Source: Marinicella meishanensis | Lineage (GTDB): Bacteria; Pseudomonadota; Gammaproteobacteria; Xanthomonadales; Marinicellaceae | DNA: 64,000 bases | Assembly (NCBI RefSeq): GCF_019931145.1 | Contig: NZ_JAIOUV010000003.1 | Span: 124,001-188,000, forward strand | Direction of reading: 5' to 3' | In this document: in pieces, positions 11,219 through 44,546 of the stretch | Layout: each line of letters starts with the position of its first letter | Numbering within the stretch: position 1 is the stretch's first letter | The notes under the pieces: model-generated | The model's database searches: none | What the model was told of the DNA's origin: nothing | What the model saw: only the letters and a program-made list of their open reading frames with translations | Program-made: the position numbers and the translations under genes

Positions 11219-11293
11219 GCACATTGGCGCAATTCTTGACACCAAATTGACAGCGCCAGCCCTACCATGACATTTTGGGCTTTGGAACCCGCG

Positions 11294-12241: not shown

Positions 12242-12359
12242 ACCCAGTCTTTAAACCCAGCAGCTCAACCCAGTCTTGGAATTGGGTGTGTTGCTGGCAA
12301 TCCATTCACAGGTCAATGGCAATTGTGCCGCATTTCCGATATCATGAAACAGGTGTTGT

Positions 12360-12365
12360 GAGGAG
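12360..12365 (+). promoter_or_regulatory. Ribosome binding site that fixes a TTG start
   Basis: GAGGAG lies six bases before the TTG at 12372. There is no ATG or GTG in a comparable position, and the first internal methionine falls after the first membrane segment. Confidence 0.7.
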
Positions 12366-12371
12366 TGTGTT

Positions 12372-13388
12372 TTGACCCGAGCTTTGGATAAACACAAAAA
12401 GACTGTTTTGCTGGTGTTTTTGTTGATCACCGTGGTAGCCGCGGTGGTGTTCGCTGTGGTGAATTACCAACGGGGGCAGGTGGCCCTGGCTGTGACCGAG
12501 CTGTTGGTGGCCATGATCTCGCTGGTGCTGTTGGTGTTGTTGCTCCGGCTCAAACAGGTGGCCAATGCCCGGGTCGTGGCCTTGCTGTTCATTTTGATGT
12601 TTTTTTCGGTCATGATGTTTGCATTTTCACTGGAGAAATCATCCCCCACCGTATTTGTTTGGGCCCTGGTCATCCCCATGGTTTCTTACTTGTTACTGGG
12701 AGTGAAAAGCGGCTTCATCCTCACCGCCTTGTTTTATTCGGTCTCTTTTGGGTTGTATTACCAACGTTTTCATGGACAACCCATCATCAATGAACAGGTG
12801 GCCTATGCCAATGTGTTTTTCAGCGCTTTATTGTTTTGGATCTTGTCCCATACCTACGAATTGACCAACCAAAAAAGCAAAGACAAACTCAGAAAGCAGG
12901 CCGTCTATGACCACCTCACAGGCTTGTACAACCGCACCTTGTTGAAGCGGTCGTTTGAAGAACATTTGTCTGCTGCGATGGATGATCACCTGGCGCTGAG
13001 TCTGGTGTTGTTTGACTTGGATCATTTCAAACAGATCAATGACCGCCATGGGCATGCGGTGGGCGATGAGGTGTTGCGGCGCTTTGCGGCGGTGTTGCGC
13101 AACATGGCGGGTGCTGACGCTCCCATCTTTCGCATCGGTGGTGAAGAATTTGTGGTGTTCATGGTCACCGATGACCTGGCTGACGCCATCGGTTTGGCCG
13201 AAACAGTGCGCCAAGCCACTGCCGACATTACCGTGGCGCAGATGGGTTTTGAATCCATCACCGTCAGTAGTGGTGTGGCCCTGACCCGCGATCCGGCAGA
13301 AACCATCGAAGGCTTGTTGCGACAGGCCGATCAGCGCATGTATCGGGCCAAGGACCTGGGCCGCAACCGGGTGGTTCACGAAGTTTGA
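12372..13388 (+). CDS. Membrane diguanylate cyclase (GGDEF)
   Basis: Makes the second messenger c-di-GMP. The 338-residue protein has an N-terminal membrane sensor of about six segments (residues 12-160) and a C-terminal GGDEF domain (about 175-335). DHLTGLYNRTLL, the metal-binding stretch FDLDHFKQIND and the active-site sequence GGEEF (residues 256-260) are intact, so it should be active. Translation probably begins at TTG 12372 behind GAGGAG. It stands alone between the YbgA-like gene and the lipid locus; whether it is functionally linked to either is unknown. Confidence 0.9.
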   Translation: MTRALDKHKKTVLLVFLLITVVAAVVFAVVNYQRGQVALAVTELLVAMISLVLLVLLLRLKQVANARVVALLFILMFFSVMMFAFSLEKSSPTVFVWALVIPMVSYLLLGVKSGFILTALFYSVSFGLYYQRFHGQPIINEQVAYANVFFSALLFWILSHTYELTNQKSKDKLRKQAVYDHLTGLYNRTLLKRSFEEHLSAAMDDHLALSLVLFDLDHFKQINDRHGHAVGDEVLRRFAAVLRNMAGADAPIFRIGGEEFVVFMVTDDLADAIGLAETVRQATADITVAQMGFESITVSSGVALTRDPAETIEGLLRQADQRMYRAKDLGRNRVVHEV

Positions 13389-13392
13389 TCGA

Positions 13393-13983
13393 TCAACAAG
13401 TCATGCGGCTTTGTGAGCAATCACTGAACGCCGATTTCAAGCGATCAATCACCGGCTCCTGACCAAACCAAATGTTGAAATATTGTTGGCTGAATGGTGC
13501 ATTGTTGGCCACCGCCAGCAACTGGTCGTTTTTGAATAATTTGAGTTGGTCGCCGGCGGAATGGACCAAATCAAAATATTCGCCGTCTGCAATGTCGGTG
13601 TAGCCGCTGTTGAATTCATTCAGCACCGCGGTCAATTGTTGCTTTTCTGCCTCTGAAGGCAGATTTTTCAAAAAGTATTCGGCCGCACTCTGTTTGAAAA
13701 AATCGGCTTTGACGTTTTTGAAGTAGTGAAATCGCACGATTTTATTGCTGGCTTGCAAAATCGGTGGGGACTCAGCGCAACTGGGTGCGTACCAACCAAT
13801 TTCAGCCACTTTGATGACCAAACCATAGCGCAAGGTGAAACTGTTGCACTGCTCATAGACGCTGTCGTTGTGTTCAATTTGACCCGGTAAATATTTGGCC
13901 GCATGACCGGTGGTGGTCAACAACAAGCCACAGATCAAAGCCCAGGTGGGGATGGAGGAAAAATCATTCATGGCACAACTCAC
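13393..13983 (-). CDS. Exported chalcone-isomerase-like protein
   Basis: A signal peptide or membrane anchor (about residues 10-28, ending GHAAKY) precedes a roughly 165-residue domain. The pattern YFDLVHSAGDQLKLF, LLAVANNAPFSQQYFNIWFG, then P..DRLKSAF matches the chalcone-isomerase-like fold found in bacterial exported proteins. The residues that make plant enzymes catalytic cannot be confirmed, and bacterial members are mostly thought to bind fatty acids or similar ligands. The GTG start at 13983 overlaps the stop of the upstream NTF2-like gene by four bases; ATG at 13971 is the alternative. Its position opposite the Cfa/DUF1365 operon matches an association I recall from other Gammaproteobacteria. 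Confidence 0.75.
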   Translation of the reverse strand: MSCAMNDFSSIPTWALICGLLLTTTGHAAKYLPGQIEHNDSVYEQCNSFTLRYGLVIKVAEIGWYAPSCAESPPILQASNKIVRFHYFKNVKADFFKQSAAEYFLKNLPSEAEKQQLTAVLNEFNSGYTDIADGEYFDLVHSAGDQLKLFKNDQLLAVANNAPFSQQYFNIWFGQEPVIDRLKSAFSDCSQSRMTC

Positions 13984-14534
13984 AGCATGGTTTTGACTTT
14001 TTTAACAAATCGACCCAGAAAAGGCAAATGTTCATAGAACGCCTCGGATGAGTCCCAAAAGTCTTGGTGAAACACCACCTGACCGGCTTCATTGAAACGC
14101 AATTGGGTCATGCCAATCGAACGGGAATGCACGTCCCGGCCTTGGATGGTGACCCTGATGTCCATCACCCAACGCACAAAATAGTCATGGTTGGCATGAA
14201 TCACATCGAGGATTTCGACGGTGGTGCTTTCCACATTGTTGGCTGATTCGGACATGTAATGCACCAGATCATCGATGTTGTGGATGATTTTAAAGGTGTC
14301 ATTGAAATAAATGTCATCGGCATAAACGGCGCGGATGTTTTGCTCGGTGGCACCCTGTTTAAAATCGGTGAAGATGGTGCCAAAAATGTATTCCACATCT
14401 TGTTCGGTGGTGGCCGGGGTGTTGGCCAGGTGTGACAGATACTGATCGACCGTGCGGTTGGGTTTGAGTTCAGGCGCACGACTGCAAGCATACATGACAC
14501 ACAACAGCAAGATGACTGCAATCAAGGATCTCAT
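13980..14534 (-). CDS. NTF2/SnoaL-like lipoprotein
   Basis: A lipoprotein signal (hydrophobic stretch ending MYAC, lipid-modified cysteine at residue 17) is followed by a domain of about 130 residues in the NTF2/SnoaL cone fold. Signs are DIYFNDTFKIIHNIDDLVHYM in the first half and VVFHQDFWDSSEAFYEHLPFLG at the end. Such folds bind small hydrophobic ligands. The protein would be anchored to a membrane facing the periplasm. It shares an operon with the chalcone-isomerase-like gene and diverges from the desaturase gene across 143 bases. Confidence 0.78.
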   Translation of the reverse strand: MRSLIAVILLLCVMYACSRAPELKPNRTVDQYLSHLANTPATTEQDVEYIFGTIFTDFKQGATEQNIRAVYADDIYFNDTFKIIHNIDDLVHYMSESANNVESTTVEILDVIHANHDYFVRWVMDIRVTIQGRDVHSRSIGMTQLRFNEAGQVVFHQDFWDSSEAFYEHLPFLGRFVKKVKTML

Positions 14535-14591
14535 GGGACCTCTGTGTTTATCAATTAAGGCCGCATGTTAGCAGTGGCCATGTGGATAAAT

Positions 14592-14624
14592 TGTGAACCA
14601 AAATGTCAGGGTCAAGGGTTCACA
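14592..14624. promoter_or_regulatory. Inverted repeat between the divergent lipid-locus operons
   Basis: TGTGAACC (14592-14599) and GGTTCACA (14617-14624) are perfect inverted 8-base half-sites with centres 25 bases apart. They lie in the 143-base gap between the NTF2-like gene (minus) and the desaturase gene (plus). Half-sites about 2.5 helical turns apart fit a dimer or tetramer operator that could control both directions. The bound protein is unknown; the operon's own OmpR-type regulator is one candidate. Confidence 0.5.
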
Positions 14625-14677
14625 GTTTCTTCACCGACCCCTTTCTATCATGGGCCCATCTGTTAACCACAAGACCC

Positions 14678-15598
14678 ATGAAAAAAACGATCACCAAATG
14701 GTTCGACAACACCCAAAGTCAGGTTGAGCAACTGACCAATCCCGATGCCATTGACCTCACTCGAATCATTCCTTTCATCGCCATCCACCTGGCTTGTTTG
14801 TTCGTCATGGTGGTTGGGGTTTCGTGGGTGGCTGTGCTGGTATGCGTGTTGTCCTATGGATTGCGCATGTTTGCCATCACCGCTTTTTACCACCGCTATT
14901 TTTCGCACAAGTCATTCAAAACTTCACGTTGGATGCAGGCCCTGTTTGCCGCTTTGGGGGCCACAGCCACCCAACGTGGGCCCATTTGGTGGGCCGCCCA
15001 CCACCGCCATCACCACATCCACGCCGACTCAAACGCCGACACCCATTCACCCAAGGATGGGTTTTGGCACAGTCATTTGAAGTGGTTTTTGATGAAGAAA
15101 AACTTCGCCACCAAGTCCGAATACGTGCGCGATTTGGAGCAGTATCCGGAACTCAAATTCATCGATCGGTTTGATATCTTGTTTCCCATCATTTACGCTT
15201 TCTTGTTGTTTGCTTTGGGCGCGGCCTTACAAACGTGGCAGCCCCAATTGGGCACCTCCGGCTGGCAAATGGTCATTTGGGGCTACTTCATCTCCACGGT
15301 GTTGTTGTCACACATCACTTATTGCATCAATTCTTTGGCCCATGTTTTTGGTTCCCGCGAATACGCCACCAAGGACGACAGCAAAAACAATTTCTGGTTG
15401 GCCATTTTGACCCTGGGTGAAGGTTGGCACAACAACCACCACTGTTGCCCTGGATCGGTCAAGCAAGGATTTAAGTGGTGGCAAATTGATGTCAGTTATT
15501 ATGCCTTATACCTGATGGACAAGGTTGGCTTGATTTGGGATTTGAAATACCCCAATCAAGAATTGTTGAACAAAAAACTGATCAGGCACAAACCATGA
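14678..15598 (+). CDS. Membrane fatty acid desaturase (acyl-CoA or acyl-lipid delta-9 type)
   Basis: Membrane diiron desaturase of the DesA/stearoyl-CoA desaturase family, 306 residues. The three histidine boxes are present: HRYFSH, HRHHH and HNNHH (in GEGWHNNHH). Two pairs of membrane segments and the NSLAHVFGSREY stretch between boxes 2 and 3 are typical. It should introduce a cis double bond into membrane-lipid acyl chains, the substrate needed by the Cfa-type enzymes downstream. ATG at 14678 is chosen because MKKTITKW starts the homologous region. Its stop overlaps the next start by four bases. It is the first gene of a nine-gene overlapping operon. Confidence 0.9.
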   Translation: MKKTITKWFDNTQSQVEQLTNPDAIDLTRIIPFIAIHLACLFVMVVGVSWVAVLVCVLSYGLRMFAITAFYHRYFSHKSFKTSRWMQALFAALGATATQRGPIWWAAHHRHHHIHADSNADTHSPKDGFWHSHLKWFLMKKNFATKSEYVRDLEQYPELKFIDRFDILFPIIYAFLLFALGAALQTWQPQLGTSGWQMVIWGYFISTVLLSHITYCINSLAHVFGSREYATKDDSKNNFWLAILTLGEGWHNNHHCCPGSVKQGFKWWQIDVSYYALYLMDKVGLIWDLKYPNQELLNKKLIRHKP

Positions 15599-16833
15599 AA
15601 GTGGCCATCATCGGTGCGGGAATCAGTGGTCTGATGGTGGCAGACCAACTCAATGATTGGGCCCAATACACGCTGTTTGAAGCGGCCGATTACCTCGGTG
15701 GACATGCCAACACCCATGCCATCGAGGTCGACGGCCAGACCATTCAAGTGGACACCGGGTTCATTGTGTTCAATGAAGACGTGTATCGGCATTTCAATGC
15801 CATGTTGGAAAAATATGGGGTGGAATCCATCCCCTCTGACATGAGTTTTGCGGTGTCCAACAGGGTCACTGGTTTGGAATACAACGCCACCAACCTGCGC
15901 AGTTTGTTTTGTCAGAAAGCCAATTTGTTCAAGCCCAAGTTTTATCGCATGTTGTTGGACATCAAACGATTTTATGGGGCCGCAGAAGCCATCATGGCTT
16001 CAGGGACCGACGTCGGCATCATGGCGTACTTGCAAGACAATGGCTACAGTGACTATTTCATCGAAGAACACATCATTCCCATGGTCAGTGCCTTGTGGTC
16101 GGGCGATTTCGCCACGGTGCATGATTATCCCTTGGTGTTCATGCTGCAGTTCATGAAAAACCACCAAATGTTGCAGCTCAATAACCGGCCTGAATGGCGC
16201 ACCATCAAACATGGCTCCCAGGCTTATGTCCAAGCCATGGCCGATCACATGACCGGTGAGGTGCGCTTGCATACCCCGGTTTTGGGCGTCAAACGGGAGA
16301 CGAATCAAGTGTTGGTCACCACTGAGCAGGGCACTGAAGTGTTTGATCAGGTGGTGTTCGCCACCCACACCGACACCACCTTGCGCCTGTTGCAAGACCC
16401 CACCGCCGCCGAACAATCGGCGTTGGCTGGCATTCCTTATGTGGAAAACCAGATGGCCTTGCACACCGATGCCAGTTTGTTGCCACGCAACCGCCAGGCC
16501 TGGGCCAGCTGGAGTGTCAACAAACACGCCGCCAACAATCCGGTCTGCACCGTGAATTACTACATGAATTTGTTGCAGTCCTTACCTTGTGACACGCCAG
16601 TGATCGTCTCATTGAACCAAAACGAATACATTGATCCGGATCAATTGTTGCTGACCAAAACCTATCACCACCCGATTTACACCCGCCAAACCTTGCAGTC
16701 GCAACAACAAATTCAAGCCTTGCAAGGCCAAAACAACACCCACTATTGTGGTGCCTATCTGGGTTGGGGCTTTCATGAAGACGGCGCCAGAAGTGGGGTT
16801 GAGGTGAGTCAAATGTTGAGGCAGTCAGCGTGA
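15595..16833 (+). CDS. FAD-dependent amine-oxidase-like oxidoreductase (COG2907 type)
   Basis: The 412-residue protein opens with the dinucleotide-binding motif GAGISGLMVADQL, followed by FEAADYLGGHANTH and a C-terminal FAD contact region GAYLGWGFHEDGARSG. This is the COG2907 group of flavin amine-oxidase-like proteins, regularly found with DUF1365 and Cfa genes. The substrate is probably a lipid rather than an amine, and related enzymes have been tied to unusual fatty acids, but the exact reaction is not established. ATGA overlap with the desaturase gene upstream, GTGA overlap with the DUF1365 gene downstream. Confidence 0.88.
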   Translation: MKVAIIGAGISGLMVADQLNDWAQYTLFEAADYLGGHANTHAIEVDGQTIQVDTGFIVFNEDVYRHFNAMLEKYGVESIPSDMSFAVSNRVTGLEYNATNLRSLFCQKANLFKPKFYRMLLDIKRFYGAAEAIMASGTDVGIMAYLQDNGYSDYFIEEHIIPMVSALWSGDFATVHDYPLVFMLQFMKNHQMLQLNNRPEWRTIKHGSQAYVQAMADHMTGEVRLHTPVLGVKRETNQVLVTTEQGTEVFDQVVFATHTDTTLRLLQDPTAAEQSALAGIPYVENQMALHTDASLLPRNRQAWASWSVNKHAANNPVCTVNYYMNLLQSLPCDTPVIVSLNQNEYIDPDQLLLTKTYHHPIYTRQTLQSQQQIQALQGQNNTHYCGAYLGWGFHEDGARSGVEVSQMLRQSA

Positions 16834-17663
16834 ACATGAGTGAACAAATGATCGCTGAATTGAGCCGCATGCGCCCTGGATTCGCCCATGGCCACGTGAT
16901 ACACAACCGCAAAACACCCCGCCGGCACCGTTTCAAGTACCACATGTGTTGGTGCTTGTTTGATTTGGATCAATTGTCTGAATGGATGACGAAGTCCAGG
17001 TTATGGCGTCACAACCGTTGGGCCTTGTTCAGTCTACATGACCGCGATTACATCAACCCTGAGTCACGCCCCATCAAAGAAAAATTACAACAATTCCTGG
17101 CGCAGAAAACTGGTGCCGCATTCAATGGGCAGGTGTGGCTGTTCACCCACCCACGATTTTTGGGCTATGGTTTCAATTCGGTGAATTTTTATTTCTGTTA
17201 TGAACAACAGCGGTTGACCCACATTGTCTCCGAAATCACCAACACCCCGTGGGGTGAAAAACACCTGTATTGGCACGATTGCCGGCCGCACGATGCCTTG
17301 AGTGAAACCCACGAGTTCTGTTTTGCCAAACAATTCCACATTTCACCATTCATGGCCATGGACATGCATTACCGGTGGCGCTTTACAGTCAGTCCAGAGC
17401 GGATCGGCATCACCATGGCGGTGGATAAAAATGACGTGAATGTGATGAACGTTGTTTTAGACACGAAAATCACACCCCTCATGGAGAATAACATCAACAG
17501 CCAGCCGCTCATGAAGTGGTTCCAGCCCTGGAAGATGTCGCTGGGAATTTATTGGCAGGCTGCCAAATTGTGGTTCAAAAAAACCCCGTTTTATGACCAC
17601 CCTGATAACCACAAGCCAGCCATGAAATCTGGCCAAGACAAGCAACAACACAACCGGAGATGA
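16830..17663 (+). CDS. DUF1365 protein of the Cfa-linked locus
   Basis: 277 residues with the DUF1365 hallmarks near the N-terminus (HGHVIHNRKTPRRHRFKY), the motif HPRFLGYGFNSVNFYFCY, and HISPFMAMDMHYRW. No membrane segment is obvious. The function is unknown; co-occurrence with COG2907 oxidoreductases and Cfa synthases is widespread, so a role in acyl-chain modification is the working idea. Start is GTG 16830 (overlapping the previous stop) or ATG 16836. It ends in an ATGA overlap with cfa. Confidence 0.88.
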   Translation: MNMSEQMIAELSRMRPGFAHGHVIHNRKTPRRHRFKYHMCWCLFDLDQLSEWMTKSRLWRHNRWALFSLHDRDYINPESRPIKEKLQQFLAQKTGAAFNGQVWLFTHPRFLGYGFNSVNFYFCYEQQRLTHIVSEITNTPWGEKHLYWHDCRPHDALSETHEFCFAKQFHISPFMAMDMHYRWRFTVSPERIGITMAVDKNDVNVMNVVLDTKITPLMENNINSQPLMKWFQPWKMSLGIYWQAAKLWFKKTPFYDHPDNHKPAMKSGQDKQQHNRR

Positions 17664-18931
17664 ACCCCATGAACAGCACTGAAACACTCGTCCGCAAGAC
17701 CGAATCCAAACCCGGTGTGATCAATCGGTTCATCAAAAAACAAGTGTTGCGGCAATTGGATCGCATCCAACAAGCTTGTTTGACCATATCCGATCAGCAG
17801 GGCAGTGTTGAATATGGCGATCCGAATGCCGATTTGCGGGCTGAGCTGCGGTTATACAACGACCGTTTTTACAACGAAGTGGCATTCCAAGGCAGCATTG
17901 GGGCGGCTGAATCATACATTGCCGGGGACTGGGATTGTGATGATTTGACCGCTTTGATCCGCATCTTCGTGCGCAACCGCGATTTGCTGGATGACCTGGA
18001 AGGGGGCAGCGCCCGCTTCAAAAATGCGCTGTTGAAAGTCGGACACTTTTTCAACAAAAACACGCTCAAGGGCAGCAAAAAGAACATCGCCGGCCATTAT
18101 GATTTGGGTAACGATTTGTTCAAAGAATTCTTGGATTCCCGCATGATGTATTCATCAGCGATTTATCAAACACCCACAGACACTTTGGAAGAGGCCAGTG
18201 AGCGTAAGCTGAAAACCATCTGTGAGAAACTGGACTTACAAGCCGATGATCACGTGATTGAAATCGGTACCGGGTGGGGCGGTTTCGCCATTTATGCGGC
18301 AGAAAATTACGGATGTCGTATCACCACCACCACCATTTCTGAAGAACAGCATGATTACGCCCAGGCCTTGATTCGTGAAAAGGGTCTGGAGTCGCAGATC
18401 ACCCTGCTAAAGCAAGACTATCGCTTGCTGACCGGCACTTATGACAAATTGGTCTCGATCGAAATGATTGAAGCGGTCGGCCATCACTACCTGCCCACCT
18501 ACTTGCGCAAATGCGATGAGTTACTTAAGCCAGAAGGCATGGCCTTGATCCAAGCCATCACCATCGAAGACCACCGCTATGAAATGGCTTTGAAATCGGT
18601 CGATTTCATCAAAAAATACATTTTCCCAGGCAGCTTCATCCCTTCGGTGGGCGCCATTGCCGCGGCCAATGCCAACAGCACCACCATGAAGTTGGTTAAC
18701 TTGGAAGATTTTGGTGAAAGTTATGCCCACACCCTGCGTGACTGGCATGCCAAATTCAATGACAACATTGAAGCGATTGAACGGGCCGGTTACGGGCTGG
18801 ATTTCCAACGCATGTGGCGCTTTTATTTCTGTTATTGCGAAGGCGGCTTCATCGAACGGGCGATCAGTGACGTGCACCTGTTGTTTGCCAAAGCCAACAA
18901 CCGCAGGCCTGCCCTGCTGGCAGTTCAGTGA
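17660..18931 (+). CDS. cfa: Cyclopropane-fatty-acyl-phospholipid synthase family protein
   Basis: SAM-dependent methyltransferase acting on cis double bonds of phospholipid acyl chains at the inner membrane. The 423-residue protein has an N-terminal lipid-binding domain (about 45-150, with AAESYIAGDWDCDDL) and a catalytic domain. The latter holds the SAM motif VIEIGTGWGGFAIYAA, the linking motif SAIYQTPTDTLEEA, and SIEMIEAVGHHYL, where the glutamates match Cfa active-site positions. FIKKYIFPGSFIPS is typical of Cfa. Whether it makes cyclopropane or a methyl or methylene branch cannot be told from sequence. Overlaps both neighbours. Confidence 0.92.
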   Translation: MNPMNSTETLVRKTESKPGVINRFIKKQVLRQLDRIQQACLTISDQQGSVEYGDPNADLRAELRLYNDRFYNEVAFQGSIGAAESYIAGDWDCDDLTALIRIFVRNRDLLDDLEGGSARFKNALLKVGHFFNKNTLKGSKKNIAGHYDLGNDLFKEFLDSRMMYSSAIYQTPTDTLEEASERKLKTICEKLDLQADDHVIEIGTGWGGFAIYAAENYGCRITTTTISEEQHDYAQALIREKGLESQITLLKQDYRLLTGTYDKLVSIEMIEAVGHHYLPTYLRKCDELLKPEGMALIQAITIEDHRYEMALKSVDFIKKYIFPGSFIPSVGAIAAANANSTTMKLVNLEDFGESYAHTLRDWHAKFNDNIEAIERAGYGLDFQRMWRFYFCYCEGGFIERAISDVHLLFAKANNRRPALLAVQ

Positions 18932-19455
18932 TGGTTTTGCTGAACGTCATGTTGCTGAACATGCTGTGGTTTGCCACCATTTTGGGGGTAGCCAATGGCA
19001 TGCTGTGGCCTTCTGCTGTGATGTTGTTGCTGCTGTTGACAGTGCTGTTTATTTATCAGGGCATCAGCAAACTGGATCTTAAAATCATGGCTTTCAGTGT
19101 GCTTTGCGGCTTGTTGTTTGATGGTTTTCTGGCCCACCAAGGCACCCTGACTTACCCAATGACCCTGCACCAATTTTCATTCTTGCCACCGATGTGGATC
19201 CTGTTCTTGTGGGTGGGCTTTGCGGCCACCGCGCGGGTTGGGCTGCAATGGCTGTTGCAAAACCCTCTGATTGGCGGCACCTTCATGCTGATCGGCGCTC
19301 CTTTGAGCTACTATTCGGCGGCCAAATTGGGCGCCGTGGTGATCAACGACTTCTGGCACGCCATGACTTTTGTCGGTTTGACCTGGTTGTTGTATTTTGC
19401 GGTTTTGGTGTGGTTCACCCAGGCCAAAGAGGCTCGTGACAATGCCGTGGCTTGA
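18931..19455 (+). CDS. DUF2878 integral membrane protein
   Basis: About five membrane segments in 174 residues. The family motif region GTLTYP followed by PPMWILFLWVGFAAT, then GAPLSYYSAAKLGAV, identifies DUF2878. It is found with Cfa/DUF1365 genes in many Gammaproteobacteria, but its biochemical role is unknown. ATG 18931 shares one base with the cfa stop; GTG 18928 is an alternative start. The 3-prime end overlaps the DUF1295 gene by 14 bases. Confidence 0.85.
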   Translation: MVLLNVMLLNMLWFATILGVANGMLWPSAVMLLLLLTVLFIYQGISKLDLKIMAFSVLCGLLFDGFLAHQGTLTYPMTLHQFSFLPPMWILFLWVGFAATARVGLQWLLQNPLIGGTFMLIGAPLSYYSAAKLGAVVINDFWHAMTFVGLTWLLYFAVLVWFTQAKEARDNAVA

Positions 19456-20221
19456 TCACCCCATTGTGTGGGCCGCTGGGGCTTGTGTGCTGTTGCAATT
19501 GCTGGCCTGGCTGCGCCAACGGCAAACCAGCAATGCCGACTCGGTGGACATTGCCTGGACCCTGGGCATCATTGTATGTGCGGTGATCTACTTGTTCACG
19601 GTGCCGTCTCCTGATTGGAACATGATCCTGGTGTTCGTGTTCCCAGTGATCTGGTACAGCCGTTTGTTGTTGCACCTGATAGACCGTTATGACGTGGCAC
19701 ATGAAGACAGCCGCTATCAACACCTCAGGGCCCATTGGTCACAAGGCACCCAAGCCAAGTTCTTGGCCTTTTTCATGTTCCAAGCCGGCTTGTCGGTGTT
19801 GTTTTCACTGACTGCTTATTGGGTCTTGGTGGCCGCCGAATTGAATGCCGTCAAAGTGGTCACAGCCGCGGTCATTGGTTTGCTGGCCTTGCTGGGGGTG
19901 ACGGTGGCCGATAAACAATTGCTGCGCTTTAAGCGCAACCACGATTCCAGTGAAGTGTGCAATGTGGGGTTGTGGCGTTATTCGCGGCACCCCAATTACT
20001 TTTTTGAATGGTTACACTGGTTTGTCTATCCCATTTTGTTGTGGGGCAACCCATATTTTGAGTGGTCCTTATTGGTGGTGGCCATCATGCTGTTGTTTTT
20101 GTTGAAGCTGACCGGCATCCCTTATTCAGAACAGCGGGCCTTGGAAAAACGGGGTGATGCCTACCGCAGCTACATGAAACAAACCAGCCCATTCATACCC
20201 TGGAGAACAAACCATGATTAA
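19442..20221 (+). CDS. DUF1295 membrane protein (steroid 5-alpha-reductase / ICMT-like fold)
   Basis: 259 residues with about seven membrane segments. The C-terminal signature (GLWRYSRHPNYFFEWLHWF, then RGDAYRSYMKQTSPFIP) marks the DUF1295 branch of the steroid 5-alpha-reductase/isoprenylcysteine methyltransferase superfamily. Members either reduce a double bond with NADPH or methylate. In this operon a reductase acting on a modified acyl chain would make sense, but that is inference. ATG 19442 gives MPWLDHP; an earlier in-frame start at 19397 would lie deep inside the DUF2878 gene. Confidence 0.85.
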   Translation: MPWLDHPIVWAAGACVLLQLLAWLRQRQTSNADSVDIAWTLGIIVCAVIYLFTVPSPDWNMILVFVFPVIWYSRLLLHLIDRYDVAHEDSRYQHLRAHWSQGTQAKFLAFFMFQAGLSVLFSLTAYWVLVAAELNAVKVVTAAVIGLLALLGVTVADKQLLRFKRNHDSSEVCNVGLWRYSRHPNYFFEWLHWFVYPILLWGNPYFEWSLLVVAIMLLFLLKLTGIPYSEQRALEKRGDAYRSYMKQTSPFIPWRTNHD

Positions 20222-21245
20222 AACCCTGATTCAATGGATCGAACGAGGTCATTTACCCGATTTTGTGGTGCGTGCCGGGATCCGTAAATTGCTCAAACAA
20301 AGGCTGCGCGAGGAGCACGCCGATGACGTCGAAGCCAGTGACCAAAAATACCATGAGTTTTTGACTGAAATCAAGCAGTCGGCCTTGGCCATTGACACCG
20401 ACAAGGCCAATGAACAGCATTATGAAGTGGACGCCGAATTTTACCGTTATGCCTTGGGTGCCCGCAAAAAGTACTCCGCTTGTTATTACCACGGCAATGA
20501 ATCGCTGGATCAAGCCGAAGAAAACATGTTGGCCTTGTACGTGGAACGGGGCCAATTCATCGATGGCCAAGAAATTCTTGAGTTGGGTTGCGGCTGGGGC
20601 TCCATCACCTTGTATTTGGCCGAACAATTCCCCGGATCCAAAATCACTGGGGTGTCCAACTCCAACTCACAGCGGCGTCACATCATGGCCCAAGCCCAGG
20701 CCCGGGGCTTGAACAACGTCAACATCATCACTTGTGACATCAACGAGCTGGAACTGCACCAACAATTCGATCGCGTCATTTCGATTGAAATGTTTGAACA
20801 TGTGCGCAATTACCAAAACCTGTTCAACAACATCGCCAGTTGGCTCAAAGACGATGGCAAAATGTTCGTGCATGTATTCGCCCACCGCTATTTGATGTAT
20901 CCGTTCATCGCCGAGGGTGATGACAACTGGATGGCCAAGTATTTTTTCAGTGGCGGTCAAATGCCCGCGGTTGACACCTTTTATCATTTCCAACAACAGC
21001 TTAAAATAGAACGCAGATGGCTTAATTCTGGTGTGCATTATGAAAAAACCGCCAACCACTGGCTGCAAAACATGGACCAAAACAAGGCCCAAATCATGCC
21101 GGTGATGGAAAAAGTCTATGGTGAAGATGCCAAGCTGTGGTTTCAACGCTGGCGCATCTTTTTCATGTCTTGCGCCGAATTGTTCGGTCATGACGGCGGC
21201 AACCAATGGCTGGTGGCCCATTATCTGTTCAGCAAACAAGCATGA
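20214..21245 (+). CDS. Second Cfa-type SAM-dependent methyltransferase
   Basis: 343 residues, shorter than the Cfa upstream because the N-terminal lipid-binding domain is reduced. The motif ILELGCGWGSITLYLAEQFP binds SAM. KYSACYYHGNESLDQAEENM and SIEMFEHVRNYQNL correspond to Cfa active-site regions, and QRWRIFFMSCAELFG closes the family. It belongs to the same COG2230 group as plant coclaurine N-methyltransferase-like proteins. Having two different Cfa-type enzymes in one operon points to two methylations or two acyl substrates. Overlaps its neighbours by eight bases upstream and four downstream. Confidence 0.88.
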   Translation: MIKTLIQWIERGHLPDFVVRAGIRKLLKQRLREEHADDVEASDQKYHEFLTEIKQSALAIDTDKANEQHYEVDAEFYRYALGARKKYSACYYHGNESLDQAEENMLALYVERGQFIDGQEILELGCGWGSITLYLAEQFPGSKITGVSNSNSQRRHIMAQAQARGLNNVNIITCDINELELHQQFDRVISIEMFEHVRNYQNLFNNIASWLKDDGKMFVHVFAHRYLMYPFIAEGDDNWMAKYFFSGGQMPAVDTFYHFQQQLKIERRWLNSGVHYEKTANHWLQNMDQNKAQIMPVMEKVYGEDAKLWFQRWRIFFMSCAELFGHDGGNQWLVAHYLFSKQA

Positions 21246-22597
21246 CCCTGCAGATCAGTAAAGTTCGATCACCCAAGCCTGCCAAAGGCAGTGTGATCAG
21301 CCGCCTGAACAAGGTCTTTGTCTTTCAAATCATATTCATCAGCATCGCCACTGTCGGTGGCGTCATCGGCGCGGCCAAAGTGGTCGAAGACGTGTTGATC
21401 AAAGAGGCTTTGATTGGCGAGGCAGAATTCTTTTGGGCCCACAAAGAGAAATATGTGGAGTTCCCTTTGCCCAAAACCATGAACTTGACTGGTTATTTGG
21501 TGTATGACGATGATTATTCCATGGTGCCTGAAGCCTTGCAAGGCATCACTGAGCAATACCAGCGCATTGAATTGAATGACAAAAATCCCATTGCCTATGT
21601 CACCGAACAACAAGGTGCCAAACTGTATTTGATCTTTGAAGAGGCACAGGTATCGAAACTGGCTTTGTATTTCGGCATCACGCCGTTGATCATCGTGCTG
21701 TTGATTGTTTATTTGCCGGCCTTCATTTCTTATGTGTTTTCCAAGCGTGCCTTTTCACCGGTGTTGCAGTTGGTCAACCGCTTAGAAAGCACCAATGTGT
21801 CACGCGCTGGACTGCATGATTTGCAATTCGATGACATCAAAGTCGTGGGCAACCATGACGTCAACACATTGATTGACGCTTTTGAAGATTTTTCTGCCCG
21901 CATCACCGAGTTGATCAACCGCGAGCGTAATTTTTCCCGCTATGCCTCGCATGAATTGCGCACCCCGCTGACGGTGTTGCGTGGCTCCATGTCTTTGTTG
22001 AAGCGGCAGGAGTTGACCGAGAAGGGACAACAATTGGTCAACCGCATGCAGCCCATGATTGAAGACATGCAGGCCTTGATCGAGGCATTGTTGATGTTGT
22101 CACGCGACGAAGTGATTGCCATCAGCGAAGAACCGGTGATGATCAACGACCTCTTGAAAAGCACGGTGGCTGACACCATTCGATTGTTTGACCCGCGTGA
22201 AATACAACTCAACTGGCAACCCAAACATCTGATTCAGGCCTACCTGCCAGAACAGTTGTTCAGCATAGTGATCGGTAATTTGGTTCGCAACGCCTGTATA
22301 TACTCACAGGACCCGGCCTCGATCACGGTCCAAATTGATGGTCCTCAGATCATCATCGAAGACAACGGCAAAGGCATGAGTGCGGCCGAACTGGCCCGCA
22401 TCATGGAACCTTTTTACCGCGCCGATGAACACGGCGAAGAAAAAGGTTTTGGACTGGGCCTGTCCATTGTTGATATGATTTGCAGGCAATGTCAATGGGA
22501 CATCGCCTTTGAAAGTGAAGAAGGGCATTGGACCCGGGCCATCCTGACTTTGCCCGAAGTGGACATATTGGCATCAACCCAAAAGGCAACAACATGA
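21242..22597 (+). CDS. Sensor histidine kinase
   Basis: Membrane sensor of 451 residues. A first membrane segment lies near residues 26-46, a periplasmic loop of about 90 residues follows, and a second segment near 140-165. The phosphoacceptor is in SHELRTPLTVL (H237). N box VIGNLVRNACIYS, G1 DNGKGM and G2 GFGLGLSIV are intact, so it should be a working kinase. No conventional HAMP sequence stands out. It is translationally coupled to the second methyltransferase upstream and to the response regulator downstream, so the lipid operon carries its own signalling pair. Confidence 0.93.
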   Translation: MTLQISKVRSPKPAKGSVISRLNKVFVFQIIFISIATVGGVIGAAKVVEDVLIKEALIGEAEFFWAHKEKYVEFPLPKTMNLTGYLVYDDDYSMVPEALQGITEQYQRIELNDKNPIAYVTEQQGAKLYLIFEEAQVSKLALYFGITPLIIVLLIVYLPAFISYVFSKRAFSPVLQLVNRLESTNVSRAGLHDLQFDDIKVVGNHDVNTLIDAFEDFSARITELINRERNFSRYASHELRTPLTVLRGSMSLLKRQELTEKGQQLVNRMQPMIEDMQALIEALLMLSRDEVIAISEEPVMINDLLKSTVADTIRLFDPREIQLNWQPKHLIQAYLPEQLFSIVIGNLVRNACIYSQDPASITVQIDGPQIIIEDNGKGMSAAELARIMEPFYRADEHGEEKGFGLGLSIVDMICRQCQWDIAFESEEGHWTRAILTLPEVDILASTQKATT

Positions 22598-23289
22598 CAA
22601 ACAGAAGCACCAACATACTCCTGGTCGAAGACCACACGGCGCTGGCACAGACCATAGCCGATCATCTGGAACTGGCCGGATTCACCATCGACTTTGCCGC
22701 CGATGGCATCACCGGCCTGCATTTGGCAGTGACCAACCCCTATGACGCCATTGTGCTGGACGTCATGCTGCCGGGTATTGACGGTTTTGAAATTTGCGAC
22801 AAAATCCGCAAAGAAGCCAAATCCGATGTGCCGATCATCATGCTCACCGCGCGTGATCAAATTGGCGACAAAATCAAAGGTTTTGACACCGGTGCTGATG
22901 ACTACCTGGCCAAACCATTCAATCCCGATGAGTTGATTGCCCGTTTACAAGCCATGATCCGCCGCCACCGCGGTGAATTTGACAGCAAGGCCATGAAAGT
23001 GGGGGACCTGGTGTTTGATTTGGGCACCATGGAAGTGACCCGAGACAAACAAAAACTCAAAGTGTCGCCAACCGGCTTGCAGATCCTTAAAATTCTGATG
23101 AAAAAGTCTCCCGAGGTGGTGACCAAAGATCAATTGGCTCAACAGCTGTGGGGCGATTTGATTCCGGACTCAGATGTGTTGCGCAGTCACCTGTATATTT
23201 TGCGCAAAACCATCGACAAACCGTTTGACCAACAACTGCTGCACACCATTCCTGGGGTGGGCTTGAAGATTTCAGATTCGGCTGATTGA
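22594..23289 (+). CDS. OmpR-family response regulator
   Basis: 231 residues: an N-terminal receiver with phosphoacceptor D56 in IVLDVMLPGIDG and K in YLAKPFNPDEL, and a C-terminal winged helix (about 135-228) ending LRKTIDKPFDQQLLHTIPGVGLKI. The partner kinase gene overlaps it by four bases. As the last gene of the lipid operon it likely controls the operon itself, perhaps through the inverted repeat at 14592-14624. That link is inference. An imperfect hairpin spans its stop codon (about 23282-23313), but it lacks a T-tract. Confidence 0.93.
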   Translation: MTNRSTNILLVEDHTALAQTIADHLELAGFTIDFAADGITGLHLAVTNPYDAIVLDVMLPGIDGFEICDKIRKEAKSDVPIIMLTARDQIGDKIKGFDTGADDYLAKPFNPDELIARLQAMIRRHRGEFDSKAMKVGDLVFDLGTMEVTRDKQKLKVSPTGLQILKILMKKSPEVVTKDQLAQQLWGDLIPDSDVLRSHLYILRKTIDKPFDQQLLHTIPGVGLKISDSAD

Positions 23290-23304
23290 GTCTGTGATAC
23301 TGAC

Positions 23305-23841
23305 TCAAATCAGGGTCTGCGGGTTGGGTAATTCCTGTTGTTGATCCAGTTTTCTGAGGGCTTGGAATAGTTTCTTGCGCAACTCGGCTAGTTCGGGTTT
23401 GCGCCGATGGTTTCTCAAAGTCTGACGCAAGGCATTGATCACATCATGCCCATGGTCGGTGTACAGGTGGTCAAACAAGGCTTTTTCATGCTCGGCAAAC
23501 AGTTCAATCCAGGCGTTGATCACGGCATCACGCACCTGATAATGCCCTTCACTTTGTTCCAGTTGGGCCAAGGTCTCTTGGATTTTGATGGGGTCGGCTT
23601 TGAGCAACAATTTACCCATATATTGAAAATGCCGTTTTCTGGCAATGTGGCTGGTGATGCGCTTGGCTTCGGCCATGGCCTGCAAAAACACCTCAGGTAA
23701 GTCCAATTGGGCCACTTTTTTCGGCGGCATCTCGCAAATGGCCTTGGCCAGGTCCTTCAGCTCATGCACCATTTGTTTGCGCTTGGTTTTGCTGATGACG
23801 GCTTCGCTGTCAGCCTGGTCTGAAAGGTGGTCTTTGGTCAT
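23305..23841 (-). CDS. darP: Ribosome-associated protein DarP/YjgA (DUF615)
   Basis: 178 residues, almost entirely helical and highly charged, matching the DUF615 family, whose E. coli member binds late 50S assembly intermediates. Hallmarks are SKTKRKQMVHELKDLAKAI, the LDLPEVFLQAMAEAKRI stretch, and RKPELAELRKKLFQALR near the end. The start at 23841 (MTKDHLSD) is chosen over a much longer frame to 24072 that would overlap the pmbA promoter region. It is divergent from pmbA, the same arrangement as yjgA/pmbA in E. coli. Confidence 0.92.
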   Translation of the reverse strand: MTKDHLSDQADSEAVISKTKRKQMVHELKDLAKAICEMPPKKVAQLDLPEVFLQAMAEAKRITSHIARKRHFQYMGKLLLKADPIKIQETLAQLEQSEGHYQVRDAVINAWIELFAEHEKALFDHLYTDHGHDVINALRQTLRNHRRKPELAELRKKLFQALRKLDQQQELPNPQTLI

Positions 23842-24016
23842 GTCTGAGGTGGTGGCAACAAAGCCCACATCATACCAAAACGCGTGACGCTTGTAGACGA
23901 TTTCCTGTGGCCTGCGGCATTCTGGCTCTGGCGGTGTGGTTTGCTGGTTTCTAAAGGCGGCCATTTCCTGTAAACTGTCAGCCTTCAGAACAACCCCGTC
24001 AAGGCACAACAAACCC

Positions 24017-25333
24017 ATGTCACAAACACTCGCAGAACAAATTCTTGACCAACTCAAACAACAAGGTGCCACCGCCGCGGAAGTGGTTTATTCCGAAGGC
24101 GCTGGTGTTTCCGTCAGTTGCCGCAATGGAGAGGTCGACACCATTGAAAACAACCACGATAAATCGGTGGTGGTCACCGCTTATAAATACCAAGCCAAAG
24201 GCTCTGCATCAACCGCAGTGGTCGATGCCGACAGCATCGCCCTGACCATCGAAAAAGCCTTGGCCATTGCCTCCCTGACCGAGGCCGATCCGGCCGCAGG
24301 TTTGGCAGATGCCGAGTTGTTTTGTCGTGATTTCAAGGACTTACAGACCAACCACCCTACCACTTTGGCGGCCGATGACTTGGTGGGAATGGCCTTGGAA
24401 GCGAACCAAGGAGCGGTTGATCACGCGCGCCAGGCCGGTATTGAGATCAGTGTAGATGAAGCCAATTTGCAGTTGGGCTCGGGTCACAGCCTGTATGCCA
24501 ACAGTGCGGGATTCATGGGTGAAAAAAGCGGCACCAATGCCTCAGCCAGTGTGGTCGCCATCGCCGCACAAGATGGGGTGATGGAGCGTGAATACTGGTG
24601 GGATGCGGTGCGTGATGCCCAGCAATTGATGCCGATGTCACAACTGGGTGAGGTGGCCGCTGAACGCACCTTGTCTCGCTTGGGATCGCGTAAGGTCAAA
24701 TCCACCAAAGCACCGGTGTTGTTCGATCCGTCCTGTGCCAAATCGCTGTTGGGCCATGCCTTGAGTGCGATCAGCGGCAGTGCCTTGTATCAGGAAGCCA
24801 GCTTCTTGAAAGATGATTTGCATCAAGCGGTGTTTCCTGAGTGGTTCAGTTTGTATGAAGACCCGTTTTTACCGGCTGGATTTGCCAGTCGCAATTTTGA
24901 CAGCAACGGGGTGCAAACCCAACAACGACACCTCATTGATTCGGGTGTGCTGGCGGGCTTTTTGTTGTCGGTGTATTCGGCCAGGCGCCTGGGCTTACAA
25001 ACCACGGGCAACGCCGGTGGCGCCCATAACTTACAAATTGAGGCCCCCACCGCGACACCTGAACAACTGCTCAAACAAATGGACACCGGCTTGTGGGTAA
25101 CCTCATTGATGGGACAAGGTGTGAATGCGGTGACCGGCGATTATTCCCGTGGCGCTGCAGGCTTTTGGGTGGAGCGGGGGACCGTACAATACCCGGTCAG
25201 TGAGCTGACCATTGCGGCCAACCTGAAGGACATGTATCGCCAACTGTTGGCGGTGGGTGATGATGTGGATCGGCGTTCCAAAATTCAAACCGGTTCCTGG
25301 TTGCTTGAGGAAATGACCATAGCGGGTGATTGA
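24017..25333 (+). CDS. pmbA: Metalloprotease PmbA/TldE
   Basis: 438 residues. Works with TldD in maturation of ribosomally made peptides and in toxin or antitoxin turnover. Family markers are the N-terminal SVSCRNGEVDTIENN, the central GKSGT-like loop, and the C-terminal GVNAVTGDYSRGAAGFWVERG. The HExxxH zinc site lies in TldD, not PmbA, and is absent here as expected. ATG 24017 gives MSQTLAEQIL. No tldD in the window. The stop shares one base with the murL start (TGATG), so murL may be cotranslated. Confidence 0.95.
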   Translation: MSQTLAEQILDQLKQQGATAAEVVYSEGAGVSVSCRNGEVDTIENNHDKSVVVTAYKYQAKGSASTAVVDADSIALTIEKALAIASLTEADPAAGLADAELFCRDFKDLQTNHPTTLAADDLVGMALEANQGAVDHARQAGIEISVDEANLQLGSGHSLYANSAGFMGEKSGTNASASVVAIAAQDGVMEREYWWDAVRDAQQLMPMSQLGEVAAERTLSRLGSRKVKSTKAPVLFDPSCAKSLLGHALSAISGSALYQEASFLKDDLHQAVFPEWFSLYEDPFLPAGFASRNFDSNGVQTQQRHLIDSGVLAGFLLSVYSARRLGLQTTGNAGGAHNLQIEAPTATPEQLLKQMDTGLWVTSLMGQGVNAVTGDYSRGAAGFWVERGTVQYPVSELTIAANLKDMYRQLLAVGDDVDRRSKIQTGSWLLEEMTIAGD

Positions 25334-26688
25334 TGGGACAGCATGTGGCAGCACAATTTGGTGCATCGTTCACCTTCAAAGACTGGCAATTAAACCCGGC
25401 ATCTGGACAATTGTTGCTGCACTACCACACCCCTGAGTGGGGGGATTTCACCGAGCAGTTGGACTTTCCGGTGGTCCCAGACTCGCGCATCGAGCAACTG
25501 GGCGGTGCCCTGACCGTCGCCATTGATTGCCTGTTTTGGATGGCCGGCGTGAGTTATTACAAAACCACCTTGGCTCAGGACATTCGCTTCCAGGGCCGCC
25601 GGCCCGATGAAGATCAAGCCCGTTGGCTGACCGACACCTGGCAAGCCGGTTTGGCCGAATTGGCCGTGGCCAATGATCTGCCTTGGCTGGATCACATTCA
25701 CATCAGCGGTGAGGCTCGAGCGCCAGTTACCCAACCGCCGTTGGCATTGGCGGCCAAAACTTTGGTGGCCATCGGTGGTGGCAAGGACTCGTTGGTGACC
25801 ATCGAATCGCTGAAACATCTGGGTGAACCTGCCACCGCTTTGCAAGTGGGGCAATCGGCGTTCATCGCCGAGGTGGCCCATCACACCGATTTGCCGTTGT
25901 TGGCCATTGGCCGACGGGTGGATGCCAAACTGACCCAGGTCAACACGGCCGGTGCTTTTAATGGGCACGTCCCGGTCACCGCCATCAATGCCTGCATCGG
26001 GGTGGTGGCGGCCCTGTTGACCGACTGTGACAGCGTGGTGTTTGCCAATGAGCGCTCCGCCGATGTGGGCAATTTTCAAACCACCGATGGGCGCTGGGTC
26101 AATCACCAGTATTCCAAATCGCTGGTCTACGAACGGCAATGGCAACACATCATCAAGCACCACGTGGCGCCTGATTTGCATTGTTTTTCCTTGCTCAGGC
26201 CATTCAGTGAACTGGCCATCATCAAAAAGTTTGCCCAGTACCCGGCGTATTTTCCGGTGTTTTCCAGCTGCAACCGCAATTTTCATTTGGCTGGCTCGCA
26301 AAACAAAACCCACCATTGGTGTGGTCAATGCCCCAAATGCGCCTTTGTGTTTTTGTGCTTGGCCCCATTTGTCAGCCCACCACAGTTGTTCACCATCTTT
26401 CACAAAAACTTATTGGATGACGTCAGTTTGTACCCCCTGTTTGACGCTTTGTTGGGTTTACAGGGCAACAAACCCTTCGAATGCGTCGGCGAGGCCGCCG
26501 AGTGTCGCCTGGCCATCGAACTGTTGAGCCAACAACCCGCTTGGCAAGCCCACCCCAGGATCGTACATTGGCAGTCGGTGTTGCCCGCGATGCCGGCCGC
26601 ACAGCAGACCGCATTGATGCAGCCTGCGACGGACCACATGATTCCCGACAAACGCCAATTTCAACAGGTCATTGGCCATGTTGCTTGA
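25333..26688 (+). CDS. murL: UDP-MurNAc-L-Ala-L-Glu epimerase MurL
   Basis: Converts the terminal L-glutamate of UDP-MurNAc-L-Ala-L-Glu to D-glutamate, in an ATP-dependent step first described in Xanthomonas. The 451-residue product has the nucleotide-binding motif AIGGGKDSLVTIE, SADVGNFQTTDGRWVNHQYSK-type motifs mid-protein, and the cysteine pair of HWCGQCPKCAFVFL. The adjacent MurD-type ligase makes the identification much firmer. The ATG shares a base with the pmbA stop. The gene overlaps murD2 by 11 bases. A long antisense frame lies opposite it and is rejected. Confidence 0.9.
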   Translation: MGQHVAAQFGASFTFKDWQLNPASGQLLLHYHTPEWGDFTEQLDFPVVPDSRIEQLGGALTVAIDCLFWMAGVSYYKTTLAQDIRFQGRRPDEDQARWLTDTWQAGLAELAVANDLPWLDHIHISGEARAPVTQPPLALAAKTLVAIGGGKDSLVTIESLKHLGEPATALQVGQSAFIAEVAHHTDLPLLAIGRRVDAKLTQVNTAGAFNGHVPVTAINACIGVVAALLTDCDSVVFANERSADVGNFQTTDGRWVNHQYSKSLVYERQWQHIIKHHVAPDLHCFSLLRPFSELAIIKKFAQYPAYFPVFSSCNRNFHLAGSQNKTHHWCGQCPKCAFVFLCLAPFVSPPQLFTIFHKNLLDDVSLYPLFDALLGLQGNKPFECVGEAAECRLAIELLSQQPAWQAHPRIVHWQSVLPAMPAAQQTALMQPATDHMIPDKRQFQQVIGHVA

Positions 26689-44496: not shown

Positions 44497-44519
44497 GTCT
44501 GCTCAGCCACTGAACCACC

Positions 44520-44546
44520 AAGCCCTGCTTCATGCAGGGCTTTTTT
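44520..44546 (+). terminator. Intrinsic terminator after the M49-like gene
   Basis: AAGCCCTGC (44520-44528) pairs with GCAGGGCTT (44534-44542) around TTCAT, followed by further Ts to 44546. It lies 23 bases past the stop and overlaps the 3-prime end of the convergent minus-strand membrane protein gene. Confidence 0.85.

Follow-up and report, generated by a model that had tools for sequence, protein, structure and literature searches.

A nine-gene operon at positions 14678–23289 (plus strand) of a 64,000-nucleotide stretch of the Marinicella meishanensis genome (NZ_JAIOUV010000003.1, positions 124,001–188,000; hereafter the window) probably directs the synthesis of furan fatty acids (FuFAs) under its own two-component system, which would take the place of sigma-E/ChrR or of LitR/PhrR-type MerR control. 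The nine overlapping reading frames are all open and run in the order desaturase, FAD protein, DUF1365, Cfa1, DUF2878, DUF1295, Cfa2, kinase, and response regulator, as an earlier reading of the sequence alone (the sequence-only reading) had stated. For the first eight genes, the Pfam families are FA_desaturase, Amino_oxidase-type FAD protein, DUF1365, CMAS, DUF2878, DUF1295, CMAS, and HisKA/HATPase_c. All eight junctions overlap, as that reading had stated, although the overlaps measure 4, 4, 4, 4, 14, 8, 4, and 4 bases in gene order and therefore range from 4 to 14 bases, not from 1 to 14. Its theme of lipid modification holds as well, the enzyme families fitting the FuFA pathway. It had left the product as a branched, cyclopropane, or furan chain; of these the furan is retained, whereas a cyclopropane is no longer the simplest choice because genes of the UfaD and UfaO families sit in the operon.

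Furan fatty acids are scavengers of radicals and singlet oxygen in fish, plants, and microbes. In the Rhodobacter/Rhodopseudomonas pathway, UfaM methylates 18:1 chains, the FAD protein UfaD (RSP1091) produces a methylated diene, UfaO (RSP1090), which contains DUF1365, uses O2 to form the furan, and FufM attaches a further methyl group (PMC7380195). The window carries an FAD-dependent oxidoreductase gene (15595–16833; PF01593, 68 bits; GAGISG motif) that adjoins and overlaps a DUF1365 gene (16830–17663; PF07103, 239 bits), as ufaD and ufaO do (PMC7380195). By family and adjacency, these two genes match the UfaD/UfaO pair, and their products are best described as a UfaD-like oxidoreductase and a UfaO-like oxygenase. 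The next gene, cfa1 (17660–18931; PF02353, 248 bits), encodes a CFA (cyclopropane fatty acid)-synthase-type methyltransferase whose nearest solved structure is E. coli CFA synthase (6bqc, 195 bits), and its family and position suggest the UfaM role.

Cfa2 (20214–21245) is a member of the CMAS family and in that respect the second Cfa-type methyltransferase of the sequence-only reading, but it lies closer to coclaurine N-methyltransferases than to CFA synthases. Its nearest solved structure is coclaurine N-methyltransferase 6gkv (232 bits, vs 99 for the best CFA synthase), and the contrast persists when Cfa2 is used as a profile (340 vs 140 bits). In a tree of 11 proteins, Cfa2 groups with the DUF1295-adjoining methylases of Rhizobium, Burkholderia, Cupriavidus, and Acinetobacter; the Cfa genes that these clusters also carry fall outside that group. 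We take Arabidopsis AT4G33110 to be a coclaurine-N-methyltransferase-like family member, although no paper naming both was found in the literature search. AT4G33110 and FufM share 37.87% identity (PMC10940516), and Cfa2 probably represents the FufM branch, the maker of dimethyl-FuFA. In Chlamydomonas, the CFA1, CFA2, DUF1365, and DUF1295 genes all belong to the singlet-oxygen genes that depend on SAK1, and CFA2 is labelled coclaurine N-methyltransferase in another table of the same source (PMC4067076). Because of the gene families, the affinity of Cfa2, the published identity of FufM, and the co-regulation in Chlamydomonas, the view that the operon holds all four FuFA functions is well supported but indirect.

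The sixth gene (19442–20221; PF06966, 168.7 bits) encodes a DUF1295 membrane protein that resembles steroid and sterol reductases and also clears the cut-off of the Steroid_dh family (PF02544; 27.6 vs 22.6 bits). N185, Y186, and E189 are invariant across 44 DUF1295 sequences, an NYxxE motif that we presume to be the mark of the reductase branch. In profile comparison, the best solved relative is 7c83, a bacterial steroid 5-alpha-reductase (E 0.0004), with ICMT 4a2n second (E 0.0051). The structure model is confident (predicted local distance difference test score, pLDDT, 95.3) and gives VIA Z values of 15.6 to 4quv (4.4 Å, 236 residues), 13.8 to 7bw1 (3.5 Å, 190 residues), and 13.6 to 7c83 (4.1 Å, 209 residues), with lower values against ICMT (11.2 for 5v7p, 3.5 Å, 165 residues, then 10.8 and 10.5); Foldseek E-values are weak, the best being 0.011. 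Model and alignment together indicate that the protein has the fold and the NY..E motif of the steroid 5-alpha-reductase-like branch. The sequence-only reading had placed a DUF1295-type reduction within the pathway, where it is not required, as UfaM, UfaD, UfaO, and FufM suffice; FufM alone gave dimethyl-FuFA in R. sphaeroides (PMC7380195), and DUF1295 is therefore not needed for that step. In Wenzhouxiangella-type clusters, which keep Cfa2 and the kinase, no DUF1295 gene was found by similarity, and these clusters fit a DUF1295 protein that is dispensable for dimethyl-FuFA. When a furan quenches singlet oxygen, an enedione is left. We propose that the DUF1295 protein may reduce this enedione.

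The operon might instead make methyl-branched or cyclopropane chains and no furans, with Cfa1 as an ordinary CFA synthase, Cfa2 as a branched-chain methylase, and the DUF1295 protein saturating the product. E. coli CFA synthase is after all the best solved relative of Cfa1, the DUF1295 protein is reductase-like, and 10-methyl-stearate systems couple a methylase with a reductase. We regard this as unlikely: the operon contains a UfaD-type FAD gene and a DUF1365 gene, both tied to furan synthesis (PMC7380195), and the Wenzhouxiangella-type clusters retain Cfa2 and the kinase with no detected DUF1295. An ordinary CFA operon was rejected as the leading explanation for the same UfaD/UfaO-type genes and because Cfa2 is not nearest to CFA synthases.

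The enzymes of the proposed FuFA operon run into a sensor histidine kinase (21242–22597), with two membrane spans, a periplasmic sensor of about 100 residues, HisKA (PF00512), and HATPase_c (PF02518), and an OmpR-family response regulator (22594–23289). The regulator gives full-length matches to NCBIfam OmpR-family models that stay under the curated cut-offs of single families (best TIGR01387, 190 bits against a cut-off of 279). Two features overlooked by the sequence-only reading lie upstream of the operon: a divergent pair of minus-strand genes (13393–14534) and an operator-like site at 14619–14634 (plus strand). The site is a tandem direct repeat, TTCAC-N6-TTCAC, with an 11-base period; it is the only exact copy in the window, the desaturase start lies 59 bases on, and a -10-like hexamer, TATCAT (14646–14651, plus strand), follows 11 bases 3′ of it. 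A second, divergent operator-like repeat with one mismatch, TTCACAATTTATCCAC (14582–14597, minus strand), faces the first gene of the divergent pair. Direct repeats with an 11-base period are the usual layout of OmpR/PhoB-family sites, and at promoters activated by PhoB or OmpR such repeats substitute for the -35 box.

The repeat was spotted by eye in the window and then tested in other clusters. The upstream comparison used 83 stretches, 82 of them full length; identical stretches were merged, and two contig-truncated Marinicella loci (L068 and L072, both with the site) were set aside. Here and below, G and L numbers denote the compared genomes and loci, G000 being the Marinicella genome of this window. 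The exact repeat stands upstream of the desaturase in 40 of 56 non-redundant kinase-bearing clusters and in none of 11 clusters of the same order that lack the kinase. Controls generated by a Markov model had it in a mean of 0.018 loci of 56 and at most in one (500 runs). In an unbiased count of repeated 5-mers at spacings of 0–15, TTCAC with spacing 6 came first (40 loci); a shifted form of it reached 9 loci and the reverse complement 6, and the next unrelated word occurred in 4; TTCAC repeats with any other spacing occur in at most 1 of the 56. An exact reverse-strand copy is present in six of the 56. The exact sites begin 39–96 bases ahead of the desaturase start codon, and 27 of the 40 are followed after 10–12 bases by TANNNT (shuffled tails: mean 3.0, maximum 9). 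The repeat is likely the binding site of the cluster's OmpR-type regulator, a prediction drawn from sequence comparison.

A held-out test came from Acinetobacter plasmid clusters that were found later via Cfa2 and had not been used to define the repeat. Three such clusters (NZ_CP053948.1, CP085288.1, and NZ_CP015616.1) carry exact sites at two promoters each, before a lipocalin gene and an NTF2-type gene, where 0.03 sites are expected per 17 kb; two of the three share a replicon type and are therefore not independent. The first cluster also has a one-mismatch site at its desaturase promoter. The kinases of the three clusters are related, and that of the first, the one on which the sensor profile was run, scores 152.8 bits to it. 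The regulator gene is annotated in two of the clusters and was found by similarity in the third. No exact site was found in four plasmid clusters without the kinase (two from Rhizobium, one each from Burkholderia and Cupriavidus). An additional exact site lies in Acinetobacter schindleri p1AsACE (L234:16120-16135), upstream of a GTP cyclohydrolase II (ribA) gene, and could tie the regulon to flavin supply.

The repeat could also belong to another shared regulator (e.g., of the CRP or LitR type) and only correlate with the kinase, since the link between response regulator and repeat is itself deduced, and a few Marinicella sites lie within palindromes before an alpha/beta-hydrolase gene, suggesting a second factor with a similar half-site. 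We consider this highly improbable: the direct 11-base period fits the OmpR/PhoB layout, the spacing hardly varies from 6, and the exact repeat is absent from clusters without the kinase. The palindromic sites are found in L177 and L196, where the repeat upstream of the hydrolase gene is part of a TTCAC...GTGAA palindrome, and a site of nearly the same sequence occurs at G017:C23:251871-251902; this palindrome probably serves another regulator whose half-site is similar.

The sequence-only reading had called for a search for the same gene order in other genomes. The full run from desaturase to response regulator is present in 10 of 15 further loci of the genus, and the other five are interrupted by contig ends. 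Among relatives, 40 of 61 have the DUF2878 gene; for genomes of the genus the count is 17 of 18, which places the conservation of the cluster beyond chance. The closest named loci are those of M. marina, M. litoralis, M. sediminis, and others. Many junctions in the genus relatives overlap or almost touch, though not all overlap, with start codons estimated by alignment. Across the order, a profile of the sensor part (A2) matches at least 274 of 398 genomes (E 1e-10), and a Cfa2 profile (A3) matches at least 250 of 398 (E 1e-60). Among the matches listed, 56 of the 63 top-scoring kinases follow Cfa2 on the same strand at a distance of no more than 300 bases, compared with 1 of 21 lower-scoring sister kinases entered. 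The seven exceptions are in G006, G014, G039, G049, G104, G133, and G148, with Cfa2 about 6.5 kb off in G039 and G049. The 259-bit cut that defines this ranking was chosen after the list had been seen, with a profile built from operon-linked kinases, and the sister count omits 3 of the 24 next-ranked rows (G112, G161, and G215, genomes without Cfa2).

In a collection of named loci, relatives of the sensor are encoded in 132 stretches; in 72 of the best 80 of these, Cfa2 lies within 600 bases upstream of the kinase on the same strand. The eight exceptions are L081, L093 (at a contig edge), L124, L125, L141, L144, L146, and L151. The pair spans Marinicella, Kangiella, Wenzhouxiangella, Methylococcales, Methylophaga, Porticoccus, and other gammaproteobacteria. 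Of the 80 loci, 15 have the response regulator on the same strand and 44 on the opposite one, and none was found within the other 21. The kinase thus stays linked to the enzymes despite rearrangement of the regulator gene. The two-component genes might nevertheless be present by proximity only, as a general membrane-stress system that follows the enzyme genes without controlling them. In keeping with that, sister kinases with the same sensor type (below 259 bits, among the matches listed) lie away from the operon in many genomes of the order, G006 holds the pair without Cfa2, and the regulator is so often displaced. We judge this quite improbable, as the adjacency of Cfa2 and kinase extends over several orders, the repeat tracks the kinase (40/56 vs 0/11), and the held-out Acinetobacter clusters have the repeat at two promoters each. 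Control by the cluster's own two-component system, as the sequence-only reading had suggested, is supported, and in relatives the kinase and regulator occupy the place of sigma-E/ChrR.

The sensor of the kinase was analysed from alignments A2 and A4 and a structure model. No relative in the PDB was found for the sensor domain by sequence at E 0.01. The model of the 228 N-terminal kinase residues is middling (pLDDT 77.4; predicted template modelling score, pTM, 0.54), and its matches to CACHE-like domains are weak (6iop, Z 8.9, root-mean-square deviation 2.4 Å, 96 residues); they point to no particular ligand. The sensor domain is a distinct one.

The divergent genes upstream of the desaturase belong to the cluster. 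They encode a SnoaL_2/NTF2-like protein (13980–14534, minus strand; PF12680, 32.6 bits), a probable lipoprotein by its N-terminus (...VMYACS, by eye), and a Chalcone_3 (chalcone isomerase-like) protein (13393–13983, minus strand; PF16036, 62.4 bits) with an N-terminal hydrophobic stretch (by eye); the two genes overlap by 4 bases. With two contig-truncated Marinicella loci set aside, the Chalcone_3 gene is present in 36 of 51 kinase-bearing clusters and a SnoaL_2 gene divergent from the desaturase in 42 of 51, vs 0 of 11 without the kinase in both cases.

The predicted regulon may extend beyond the operon. In G000, the exact repeat occurs in 12 copies, against 4 of the reversed pattern, and with a -10-like element it occurs at 41 sites in 18 Marinicella genomes, against 12 for the reversed control (summed by hand). 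The sequence-only reading had regarded the photolyase that usually accompanies such genes as missing; it is instead displaced, since a photolyase-related gene (PF04244) with an operator-like site 160 bases upstream is found elsewhere in the genome. Of the seven Marinicella genomes with this gene, five have an exact site within 450 bases upstream (G000, G001, G003, G007, and G017), at a distance of 356–410 bases in three of the five; G002 has a one-mismatch site, and G012 has none. The photolyase-like gene is probably co-regulated with the operon in Marinicella. A photolyase regulon outside Marinicella was rejected on six more distant homologues without a site. TTCAC-N6-TTCAC also lies ahead of a CIA30-domain gene in G000, G003, G012, and G016 (L173, L205, L194, and L200); the family, PF08547, was assessed for the copy in G000.

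Taken together, the following mechanism can be proposed. The membrane fatty acid desaturase (14678–15598; PF00487, 93.8 bits; histidine boxes HRYFSH, HHRHHH, and HNNHH) would supply or adjust unsaturated phospholipid chains. Cfa1 would then add a methyl branch, the FAD protein would make the methylated diene, and the DUF1365 protein would close the furan ring with O2, the last two roles being suggested by family and by an adjacency seen in the enzymes proven in Rhodobacter and Rhodopseudomonas. Cfa2, judged by its subfamily, would add the second ring methyl. The DUF1295 protein would be a membrane-bound reductase of C=C bonds, more likely for furan chains already spent or oxidised than for a step of the synthesis, and the DUF2878 membrane protein (18928–19455; PF11086, 91.2 bits), SnoaL_2, and Chalcone_3 may be conserved helpers. 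The kinase would sense a membrane or periplasmic signal, speculatively lipid oxidation, and the phosphorylated regulator would bind TTCAC-N6-TTCAC just upstream of the -10-like element, a site defined by comparison. Once bound, it would activate the nine genes and the divergent pair, and in Marinicella also the photolyase-like gene. A bolder version, which we think rather unlikely, holds that in non-photosynthetic gammaproteobacteria the kinase is specialised for sensing photo-oxidation of membrane lipids and that the operon runs a renewable scavenging cycle. In such a cycle, the dimethyl-furan would quench singlet oxygen to give a dioxo-ene that the DUF1295 protein reduces before proteins are damaged, while SnoaL_2, chalcone-type, and lipocalin proteins would carry oxidised chains through the periplasm.

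Several observations weigh against a FuFA operon under its own two-component system. The exact forward site is absent from 16 of the 56 kinase-bearing clusters (L053, among these, carries it in reverse orientation), and allowing one mismatch lowers the contrast to 48/56 vs 3/11; one-mismatch sites were dropped as evidence for that reason. Upstream of the six non-Marinicella photolyase homologues, whose starts are approximate, no site was found within 450 bases. In Marinicella G006 (L081, L232; C1:79000-88000), the kinase (76% identity) and regulator (89%) persist, but the surrounding 9 kb contains no enzyme gene of the window's set and the genome gives no match to Cfa2 or DUF2878, so the pair has or had another function. 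Orthology to UfaM, UfaD, and FufM was assigned by family, position, and published identities. RSP1089, numbered next to ufaO in the same R. sphaeroides operon, is dispensable for FuFA (PMC7380195), so proximity to ufaO does not by itself identify a gene as ufaM. Finally, the S. maltophilia work described below (PMC11832516) weakens the claim of singlet oxygen as the main stress here. Besides G006, further lone kinase loci are L124, L141, L146, and L151. Elsewhere in the window, a strong AT skew (0.24) at 44001–46000 coincides with a minus-strand gene for a hydrophobic membrane protein of 498 residues (44530–46026).

Bacterial FuFA control was previously known through sigma-E/ChrR and, in Pseudomonas, light-responsive LitR regulators. 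Among open-licence PMC papers, the literature search found none that joins furan fatty acids to a two-component system. A FuFA-type operon is itself known in kind, most of its parts having been seen in other orders and under other regulators. The apparent novelty lies in a two-component version that is widespread and has a sensor-kinase family of its own and a predicted operator and regulon. The conserved two-component system and readable operator offer a testable third route to the FuFA-inducing signal, in culturable marine and methanotrophic bacteria. If the reading is true, all four known FuFA functions sit in one compact cassette, with a candidate for the fate of spent furan chains, and the cassette is also carried on mobilizable Acinetobacter plasmids.

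The closest published counterpart is smlt2375-smlt2367 of Stenotrophomonas maltophilia, which encodes a desaturase, an FAD oxidoreductase, a hypothetical protein, a CFA synthase, two inner-membrane hypothetical proteins, and a CFA synthase in the same order as here, and is 165- to 697-fold up in a chrR mutant, co-regulated as one unit (PMC11832516). From position, we infer that Smlt2372, Smlt2370, and Smlt2369 are the DUF1365, DUF2878, and DUF1295 proteins. It differs in being controlled by sigma-Ec/ChrR, whereas a kinase and response regulator are found here, and in two extra genes, one for a lipocalin at the end and one for a periplasmic protein at the front; furan chemistry is not named by the authors in the available part of the paper (PMC11832516). 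The same exchange of regulators recurs elsewhere. All seven enzyme families stand beside ECF (extracytoplasmic function) sigma and ChrR genes in L063, a genome of the same order. On Rhizobium tropici pRtrCIAT899a, a DUF1295-Cfa2 pair lies beside Cfa/DUF1365/FAD genes and rpoE-chrR, and on R. johnstonii pRL12 such a pair lies beside FAD genes and rpoE-chrR, with no intact Cfa or DUF1365 gene annotated. The enzyme set adjoins an ECF sigma/anti-sigma pair in Burkholderia anthina and a TetR gene in Cupriavidus. In the window, no ECF sigma or ChrR gene is present among the genes at 11267–26688 (read by eye), and a G000 gene with a double Cupin_7 domain has no sigma gene in the surrounding 4 kb (by eye); RpoE-ChrR control of this operon was rejected accordingly.

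Rhodobacter sphaeroides (RSP1091-1087 and ufaM) and Rhodopseudomonas palustris (RPA2571-2569 and fufM) resemble the window in that a UfaD-type FAD protein adjoins the DUF1365 protein UfaO, the methylases are of the same superfamily, and O2 is needed (PMC7380195). In Rhodobacter the gene for UfaM, and in Rhodopseudomonas that for FufM, lies apart from ufaD-ufaO; the window instead has candidates for all four functions in one operon, which adds a desaturase, DUF1295, and the two-component system. The Pseudomonas LitR/PplR light-regulated phrB-ufaM region (PMC9758184) and the PhrR regulon with VC1123 (DUF2878) (PMC12971978) likewise unite FuFA-type genes, DUF2878, and photolyase in one regulon, but under MerR-family control beside the photolyase gene, whereas here a two-component system is present and the photolyase-like gene is distant. 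The Acinetobacter plasmid clusters, with desaturase, FAD, DUF1365, Cfa1, DUF1295, Cfa2, kinase, divergent-type genes, and the same repeat, are members of the same variant. They differ in placing the response regulator, chalcone-type, and NTF2-type genes in a separate unit on the opposite strand, in having no DUF2878 found by similarity, and in the addition of a lipocalin gene.

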